DNA from: Archaeoglobales archaeon
GTDB lineage: Archaea > Halobacteriota > Archaeoglobi > Archaeoglobales > Archaeoglobaceae
NCBI GenBank assembly: GCA_003662985.1
Contig: QMZD01000032.1
Location: 1 to 10,351, forward strand
DNA: 10,351 nt
Direction: 5' to 3'
This document shows, piece after piece, positions 1 to 1,708 of this stretch; the first letter of the stretch is position 1, and every line of letters starts with the position of its first letter. Under the pieces are notes generated by a model. The model saw nothing but the letters and a program-made list of their open reading frames with translations. It was not told the DNA's origin and ran no database searches. Position numbers and translations under genes: made by a program.

Positions 1-198
1 GAATTCCGAAATGTTTTCGATGTTATTTTCAAACCATTCGTGATTTTCAGGCTTGAACCAGACCGTAATATTCAGAAATGTCATCAAGCGTTACGGTCTC
101 TGGGTGTCAAGATAGAAATGAGCTCTCAACAGATCTCTCACCCTCAAAGGGCTTTCAAACTCATCATAAATTGCATACCCCACAGAGTCGGATATCAT
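1..198 (-). pseudogene. Unrecognised ORF, interrupted by an in-frame stop and cut by the window edge
   Basis: Reading leftwards from an ATG at 198, the frame encodes 35 residues beginning MISDSVGYAIYDEF and then meets TAA at 93-91. The same frame is open again to the window edge and ends with residues WFKPENHEWFENN and beyond. Between about 94 and 58 another frame reads VTLDDISEYYG, which looks more protein-like than the in-frame stop region. Two compensating single-base shifts would therefore give a continuous protein. I do not recognise the family. The gene lies downstream of, and on the same strand as, the phosphoribosyltransferase, so it could be a third member of that cassette, although it has its own TATA box. 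An 8-codon upstream ORF (ATG at 221, stop at 197-195, preceded by GGAGG at 238-234) overlaps the start as ATGA. It may be the true N-terminus shifted out of frame. The coding call is moderate and the function is unknown. Confidence 0.45.
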
Positions 199-217
199 TG
201 ATGTTCCTTAATAAATC

Positions 218-230
218 TCATTTATAAAAC
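218..230 (-). promoter_or_regulatory. TATA box for the leftmost minus-strand ORF
   Basis: On the minus strand GTTTTATAAATGA lies 20-32 bases upstream of the ATG at 198. This is the right distance for an archaeal TATA box driving a leaderless or nearly leaderless transcript. It would let this ORF be transcribed apart from the dprA/phosphoribosyltransferase pair. It is a pattern match only. Confidence 0.45.
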
Positions 231-283
231 TTGCCTCCTGAAAGTTGTGTACGTAGAGACTCTAGGAACGTGAGCGTATTTTT

Positions 284-948
284 TCAAGGTCTCCTTAGAC
301 AATCATTATACTGTGATCTGTATGTGACCCGACCTATAACTGGGTCAATAAGCCCTCTAAACTCAGTCTCATTGCTTACCGTTCGCATTGCTGCAAACGC
401 TTTTATTTTGACGTCTGGAAATATTCTTTGAAGGCGCCACGCAGCACCCATAAACGTGTGCCCTCTCGTTATGATATCTCAACCAATAGTAAGTTTAATG
501 AGGGGAGTTTGAATTTTTCAACTTCCATAGAATTGTAGTGATCTGTTGGGCGGGGTCTCCAAATTGATGGAGATGTAGAAGATCTTTGAATACACTTCAC
601 TCTTTTAAGTGCAGGCCTAACTGTACCTAACCCTTCCTGCTCCATTGCCTTAGATATTTGAAGTGATGGCCAGAGTGTACCTTTTCTGATTGGCGACGAT
701 CTAGGAACAGGAACAAGAACAACATCTTCACCGAAAAAATCTGTAAAAAGATCCATTCTACTGGCTTCTATCTTTAATCTTTTTGCAACAAACTCGGATG
801 CAAATAACTCCCCCAGTTGTGAATGATGTACGGACGATTCATTTTTGATTGCTCGCATAACGCTTTTAGCGATTAATCCCCCTTCAGAAGTACTAGTGGG
901 GCAATAAGAAAGGAGAGAACCAAATACTAGCTCGGATAACATTTCCAT
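284..948 (-). pseudogene. ComF-type phosphoribosyltransferase (ShosT-like), frameshifted in the PRPP loop
   Basis: Type I phosphoribosyltransferase of the kind encoded beside DprA/Smf genes; in ShosTA systems this partner is the toxic effector. The N-terminal frame (948 to 469, 159 residues) has VLVPVPRSSP at residues 77-86, KGTLWP at 89-94 and a RPTDHYNS stretch at 133-140, all typical of this family. The frame then reads LLLV and stops after three more residues. One base later, the other frame continues with DIITRGHT and an intact C-terminal part to a TGA at 286-284. Restoring one base near 478-480 rebuilds the canonical PRPP-binding motif VDDIITRGHT and a protein of about 221 residues, a normal length. 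The ATG at 948 is 10 bases after the dprA stop, with AAGGATC as a weak ribosome binding site, so the pair is probably one transcript. The break could be real inactivation, programmed frameshifting or a sequence error. Confidence 0.85.
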
Positions 949-958
949 TTACGATCCT

Positions 959-1708
959 TCAAACTTCACTTTCCATCTCTTCAATTTGAATTGTCCCTTC
1001 AAGCGGGGGAAATAGCTCCTCTATTACGTAATCTAGCTCGTAGATTTCCTCTAAAATTATTGCGCCGTAGTTGACCATTTTCTCTACCCACTCTAAACCT
1101 CTATCTAGGAGTAACTTCCAAAGTAAGAGGGGTCTGCCCAATCTCAAAGTTTCCCAGCCTTGAGAGACAACACCACTCGTTTCTCCAGCTTCCACTATTA
1201 TACTTGCATCGGAGAGCAAGGCCATTGTTCTGTTGCGAAAGATAAAATGTTTTGGTTTTGTAATACTGCCAATTTTATACTGGCTCACTGCTAAATGCTC
1301 TTTCATTATTAACTCCTGCAGAGGTCTATTTTCAGCTGGGTAGAATTTGTTAAGCGGAGTACCAAGAACTGCAATCGTTTTCCCTCCGTGGTTTATTGCA
1401 GTTTTATGTACAACAGTGTCAATCCCTTTAGCAAGCCCACTCACGACTATGATTTTGTGATCACCGAGTTTTTTTGTTATCTTTTCGGCATATTTTATCC
1501 CTTCTGGTGATGGTTTTCTAGTTCCAATAACAGCAACACGTGGTCCCATAAGTGGTGGTTTTATAGAACCAGCGACATATAGCTCCTTAGGAGCGTATTT
1601 TTTCTCAATCTCGTTGAGAGGTCGACCCAAGAGTTCAGAAGGTGTCAATCGTCTGATTTCTATGTTTGGCTTTCTTTCTTTTGCTTTCCACCTTTGCCTA
1701 GCATCCAT
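959..1708 (-). CDS. dprA: DprA/Smf-family Rossmann protein (ShosA-like)
   Basis: A 249-residue protein of the DprA/Smf (SLOG) superfamily. Visible hallmarks are IGTRKPSPEG at 61-70, SGLAKGID at 90-97, a conserved His at 101, LGTPLNKFYPAEN at 115-127, FRNR at 157-160 and EAGETSG at 173-179. It consists essentially of the Rossmann core with short flanks. I see neither the N-terminal SAM-like domain nor a C-terminal winged helix of full bacterial DprA. In bacteria DprA loads RecA onto incoming single-stranded DNA. When paired with a ComF-like phosphoribosyltransferase, as here, the DprA homologue acts as the antitoxin/regulator of ShosTA systems. That role is inferred from context. It is the first gene of the pair; the start at 1708 is the first ATG and is preceded by a TATA-like box about 23-32 bases upstream, with no clear Shine-Dalgarno, so a leaderless mRNA is likely. 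Confidence 0.9.
   Translation of the reverse strand: MDARQRWKAKERKPNIEIRRLTPSELLGRPLNEIEKKYAPKELYVAGSIKPPLMGPRVAVIGTRKPSPEGIKYAEKITKKLGDHKIIVVSGLAKGIDTVVHKTAINHGGKTIAVLGTPLNKFYPAENRPLQELIMKEHLAVSQYKIGSITKPKHFIFRNRTMALLSDASIIVEAGETSGVVSQGWETLRLGRPLLLWKLLLDRGLEWVEKMVNYGAIILEEIYELDYVIEELFPPLEGTIQIEEMESEV

Follow-up and report, generated by a model that had tools for sequence, protein, structure and literature searches.

A probable archaeal member of the compact DprA-phosphoribosyltransferase (ShosTA-type) pairs, with a broken phosphoribosyltransferase gene

A compact pair of genes for DprA and a phosphoribosyltransferase (PRTase) is known from P2-like phages and plasmids, and the pair from a P2-like hotspot is reported to be protective (Rousset et al. 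2022, PMC9122126). It is probably the pair named DprA-PPRT in the methods of a paper on Asgard archaea (PMC11291487). ShosTA from E. coli (PDB 8zva, 8zvb, 8zvc, 8zvd) likewise consists of a DprA-like protein and a PRTase: ShosT is described in a review as a PRTase and pyrophosphatase that disturbs purine metabolism, and ShosA as a DNA-binding protein (PMC12593503, citing Pu et al. 2025); the system is reported as possibly responding to protein-DNA intermediates of phage replication (PMC10732053). PRTase toxicity is likewise countered by a partner with DprA homology in RqlHI, where RqlI restrains the toxic PRTase domain of RqlH (PMC4670107). Here we analyze a pair of this composition in an Archaeoglobales archaeon, on a stretch of 10,351 nucleotides (the window) that is a whole contig (QMZD01000032.1) of an assembly 80.7% complete in 383 contigs. 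We judge it likely that this archaeon carries an archaeal version of the compact DprA-PRTase pairs of the ShosTA type (toxin-antitoxin or abortive infection), that such pairs have spread horizontally, and that the toxin is dead in this copy.

The archaeal loci share with the phage and plasmid pairs the gene order, the overlap or short gap between the genes, and the grouping of their DprAs. Sizes are also similar: DprA and PRTase have 282 and 225 amino acids (aa) in phage Mana and 231 and 208 aa in Paracoccus, and intact archaeal PRTases (n = 20) are stand-alone proteins of 216-241 aa. The differences are the archaeal hosts and the broken copy in the window; the best archaeal PRTase identity to two plasmid pairs is 32% and 40%. 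Compared with E. coli ShosTA, the PRTase fold corresponds to ShosT residues 175-397 and the DprA fold resembles ShosA 8zva, whereas the window DprA is shorter than the ShosA chains (308-331 residues). In RqlHI and PsyrTA the PRTase forms a fusion with a RecQ-like helicase, unlike the stand-alone protein of about 220 aa in the intact relatives here. The ComFC and DprA proteins of natural transformation belong to the same two families, and ComFC is the nearest fold by Z; however, no ComEC was found over cut-off in the class Archaeoglobi, and no additional DprA domain was seen.

A sequence-only reading of the window had suggested that an archaeal case would extend the known range of ShosTA. By itself it does not, since the 2024 Asgard paper reports ShosTA among the systems more frequent in Asgard archaea (PMC11291487). 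By term search, Shos, DprA and Archaeoglob- are absent from the main text of a survey of archaeal immunity published in 2026 (PMC12988326), and among the papers listed on ShosTA or DprA in archaea, with few subscription journals covered, none dealt with this archaeal clade by title and opening of the abstract.

Conservation, phylogeny and uneven decay of the pair

Named GTDB genomes were scanned with a PRTase profile that contained no DprA information, and 25 loci were obtained. DprA lies directly upstream of the PRTase on the same strand in all 25, and the two genes overlap or lie at most a few dozen bases apart, a pairing beyond chance. Going by record titles, the loci come from Archaeoglobi, Thermoplasmata, Bathyarchaeota and Nitrososphaeria or their relatives, from a few archaea without placement, and from one bin labelled Gemmatimonadetes. 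This last locus (L072, Gemmatimonadetes bacterium SB0661_bin_36) is 95-97% identical to that of Cenarchaeum sp. SB0662 (L071) and is probably an archaeal contig in a bacterial bin.

The distribution of the pair within Archaeoglobi is patchy. The compact PRTase was detected in five of 59 genomes (>100 bits); any match to its profile at E <= 0.001 was found in 13, the other eight being weak and partial. Full-length DprA is present in nine of the 59 genomes (>150 bits), and PF02481 matched in 34, over its cut-off in 22, with the remainder short and weak. All nine full-length DprAs adjoin a PRTase-like open reading frame (ORF), five of them arranged as in the window and four (G015, G016, G019, G020) with the PRTase upstream. 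Across a wider sample of 392 genomes of the phylum, the ShosA model matched in 49. Archaeal DprAs are not paired in general, because a simple motif search of 29 fetched loci placed a PRTase-motif ORF near only 5 of 21 longer archaeal DprAs.

A different pair was observed in four other Archaeoglobi (L049:8893-10255, L050:8743-10424, L051:5043-6367, L052:9186-10528), in which a ComF-like PRTase lies directly upstream of a short DprA and overlaps it, with ORFs called from the first start. By eye, the N-termini of two of these PRTases are hydrophobic (membrane-like), and those of the other two are rich in Cys and resemble ComFC (in L051 as a separate ORF); the last two pairs sit between NTPase-like and Trm1-like genes, also by eye.

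A tree built from 50 DprAs unites the 26 DprAs of archaeal pairs (98/95) with six bacterial DprAs that precede a PRTase, from plasmids of Paracoccus, Pseudosulfitobacter, Allochromatium and Sulfitobacter, Burkholderia phage Mana (Peduoviridae) and Pseudomonas phage Riah. The 26 archaeal DprAs form one group at 94/95, just below the star level of the tool. The other 18 archaeal DprAs, including four from Archaeoglobi with the other arrangement, fall apart from the pair group; 14 of the 21 longer archaeal DprAs, chosen by hand, were used in the tree. The window DprA neighbors a Thermoplasmata copy (94/82), and a copy labelled Bathyarchaeota nests among Archaeoglobi (100/99), placements that may be signs of transfer between archaea, or of mis-binning. 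Distances between DprAs correlate with those between PRTases (r 0.81, 0 of 5000 permutations, 22 loci). This test used 20 archaeal and two plasmid rows, leaving out the window and five loci with broken PRTases; L071 was left out of both the test and the tree.

The fold of an intact PRTase relative (P0122) has solved ShosT as its best Foldseek match, with ComFC equally close. A PDB sequence search with PRTase profiles gave marginal matches only (best E 0.03), none of them ShosT. Three observations together support the kinship with ShosTA that had been proposed from the sequence: the two genes are adjacent at each locus found, ShosT ranks among the best fold matches, and the DprAs group with those of phage and plasmid pairs.

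The two genes decay unevenly. Of 27 loci, six have a broken PRTase (the window, L069, L074, L075, L076 and L077) and none a broken DprA (two-sided Fisher p 0.023), the 27 being the 25 named loci, G022 and the window. DprA, which is similar in length, serves as an internal control for assembly errors in this count; L071 was re-examined because its match began late, and its PRTase frame is open. Such a bias is expected if the PRTase is the toxin and fits a harmful PRTase beside a harmless DprA. As four of the six breaks lie at or shortly before the motif that binds phosphoribosyl pyrophosphate (PRPP), programmed frameshifting was also considered; it was rejected, because the break sites differ between loci and none is shared by eye.

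Genes of the window and the break in the PRTase

The coordinates of the pair and of the contig end beside it are given in Table 1.

Table 1. Features of the window at and next to the DprA-PRTase pair.
Feature	Position	Strand	Evidence
DprA-like Rossmann protein, 249 aa, intact; presumed antitoxin/sensor (ShosA-like)	959..1708	-	PF02481, PADLOC ShosA, AlphaFold2 model
PRTase N-terminal piece, 159 aa; presumed toxin gene, broken	469..948	-	profile matches, ShosT model
PRTase C-terminal piece, 64 aa, other frame, 10-base overlap with N-terminal piece	284..478	-	frame reading, profile match, phmmer
Contig end 3' of PRTase; short pieces, shifting frames; no identified gene	1..283	.	

The upstream gene indeed encodes a DprA/Smf Rossmann protein, as had been read from the sequence: PF02481 (E 1.1e-46) is the sole Pfam family above cut-off. 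The absence of visible accessory domains was likewise confirmed by Pfam, with PF18306 and PF18185 below their own cut-offs. DprA models of NCBIfam match this protein only below cut-off, and the PRTase piece has no match in that scan. The broad PADLOC ShosA model (PDLC03961) matches DprA with E 5.9e-69. The top fold matches of the AlphaFold2 model (pLDDT 89.6) are DprA from S. pneumoniae and H. pylori, and ShosA 8zva ranks 14. An additional C-terminal domain, a usual feature of transformation DprAs, is not seen in the window DprA (PF02481 only); the H. pylori DprA chains of known structure are likewise short.

A ComF-type PRTase had been proposed to follow 10 bases after DprA. A PRTase does follow on the same strand at that distance; however, it is not intact but split over two frames, with the break inside the PRPP-binding motif (DD..TRG) that is invariant in 35 aligned intact relatives. 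A PRTase profile of 17 rows, one of them the N-terminal piece itself, matches the two pieces separately (E 5.9e-65 for the N-terminal and 2.4e-33 for the C-terminal piece), and phmmer matches the C-terminal piece with E 8e-30. A search with the N-terminal piece returned 17 proteins at E <= 0.001 including itself, the others being of 191-232 aa; relatives of this size that keep the PRPP motif intact exist. The PADLOC ShosT model (PDLC03962) matches the N-terminal piece with E 6.8e-9 and eight scanned relatives with E 1.1e-21 to 9.8e-28. The label ComF-type is only roughly right, since neither piece reaches any Pfam PRTase family, although the intact relative has a fold similar to those of ComFC and ShosT alike.

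A working pair in this genome is not supported, because the PRTase is broken; having lost the reading frame of its toxin gene, the window copy is probably a defunct system whose antitoxin survives. Alternatively, the PRTase could be intact in the cell and the break an error of assembly or sequencing, which we regard as possible but doubtful. On the one hand, the sequence comes from a single fragmented assembly, and the break is close to the contig end. On the other hand, eight conserved genes on the same contig are open (rpl18e, rpl13, rps9, rpoN, rpoK, enolase, rps2 and PRPP synthetase, named by eye), and the N-terminal piece falls in a two-sequence cluster. Moreover, a DprA differing at two residues is listed from a contig of 12,248 bases, longer than the window, whereas the matches listed for the PRTase piece (5.8 billion proteins scanned, 42 candidates, 17 matches) do not include a near-identical PRTase in intact form; the next best has 68% identity. 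We infer that the second PRTase record is also broken.

An adjacent third ORF had also been suggested, but the 283 bases left contain no more than short pieces, in frames that shift, with no convincing relative among the related loci compared (best E above 1). Genes downstream of the pair vary between loci. At positions 1-230 on the minus strand, short protein-like pieces run across shifting frames to the contig end, possibly a second decayed gene.

Weighing the ShosTA-type reading

Several points weigh against the reading as a ShosTA-type pair. ComFC fits the PRTase fold as well as ShosT does, with ComFC 7p0h as top VIA-align match and nearest by Z, and transformation DprAs match the window DprA better than ShosA does, by fold and by sequence. 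ShosT has 424 residues with an extra N-terminal part that the archaeal PRTases lack. Organism relatedness may contribute to the correlation of distances. Without the window, breakage is 5 of 26 against 0 of 26 (p 0.051), two of the 27 loci (L071, L072) are near-copies, and most loci come from metagenome assemblies, where some breaks may be sequencing errors. With its PRTase broken on this contig, the local pair may do nothing; no defense gene was seen next to it and no defense island is visible on this contig. Among 18 viral stretches that fit a pattern, none encoded a relative, and the literature surveyed, at the scope given above, contained no toxicity or antiviral assay or functional data for archaeal copies. 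Finally, the PADLOC models for ShosA and ShosT match in 10 and 13, respectively, of 14 well-known control genomes.

The last point limits what PADLOC profiles can tell. Both members of the window pair match, but the match is weak evidence alone; six differently arranged PRTases (three from Archaeoglobi, three from other families of the phylum) also match the ShosT model (E 2.4e-25 to 1.8e-10). The labels were therefore rejected as proof of ShosTA, and because the models are broad they leave membership unsettled by themselves. For the same reason, automated annotation may overcount ShosTA, in archaea too, where it does not demand that the two genes be neighbors.

Cas4 and Cas1, an EcoO109I-type restriction enzyme (L075) and a terminase (L074) occur near some other loci, as do a resolvase/recombinase (L056), a DUF1156 methylase-like protein (L046) and a DUF499 ATPase (L057). 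These come from 20 neighbor proteins of 11 loci scanned against Pfam, seven of which had no Pfam family; because they were picked by hand, they give no frequency. In L064 (488-1980), on a contig labelled Nitrosopumilaceae archaeon, Cas4 and Cas1 are encoded about 0.5-1.5 kb upstream of the pair. The window pair itself adjoins a PAS-GAF histidine kinase and, as named by eye, a cluster of ribosomal-protein genes. In an empty-site comparison with five congeners, four had no kinase match beside rpl18e, and in the nearest (G010) the contig ends within the kinase gene.

Could the pair be a house-keeping one, for nucleotide salvage or DNA repair and devoid of toxicity? PRTases are common salvage enzymes, the PRPP motif is conserved, and several other loci lie, by eye, among metabolic genes. 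Even so, patchy presence, DprA linkage in 25 of 25 loci, the 98/95 group with plasmid and phage pairs, and repeated breakage of the PRTase with DprA kept make this improbable. A competence or DNA-uptake module of DprA and a ComFC-like protein is less probable still: both proteins serve bacterial transformation, transformation DprAs are the top fold matches of DprA, and ComFC 7p0h tops those of the PRTase, but the compact pair occurs in so few Archaeoglobi genomes, its DprA has no further Pfam domain and groups with phage and plasmid pairs, and ComEC (PF03772) was over cut-off in none of the 59 genomes (one weak partial match, in G006; the window's own incomplete genome had none) compared with 10 of 14 controls. 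A role in transformation thus appears unlikely, in agreement with the doubt expressed in the sequence-only reading.

Proposed mechanism and significance

By kinship with the described systems, the archaeal ShosTA-type PRTase may be toxic, DprA may neutralize it, and a viral trigger may set off an antiviral effect. The PRTase would consume PRPP and, once unleashed, upset nucleotide metabolism and halt growth, and its DprA partner, probably made from the same transcript, would restrain it. DprA would couple the PRTase to abnormal single-stranded DNA or DNA-protein complexes arising from virus replication, so that infected cells would stop before the virus multiplies. The pair would move horizontally among archaea. 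A more far-reaching version seems a long shot: the archaeal pairs might form an abortive-infection clade of their own that works without ComEC and RecA, with a Rossmann-only DprA monitoring intermediates of archaeal replication or recombination. Loci with a dead PRTase and an open DprA might then be retained antitoxins, protecting against incoming intact copies of the mobile toxin or having a DNA-processing role of their own.

If the ShosTA-type reading is right, archaea gain a well-delimited, phylogenetically coherent set of such pairs in Archaeoglobi, Thermoplasmata, Bathyarchaeota and Nitrososphaeria, whose small proteins, some derived from thermophiles, would suit structural work. The uneven decay of the two genes offers sequence-level support for assigning the toxin and the antitoxin. 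Together, these findings would provide a testable explanation for the role of this DprA in archaea where ComEC is not found.
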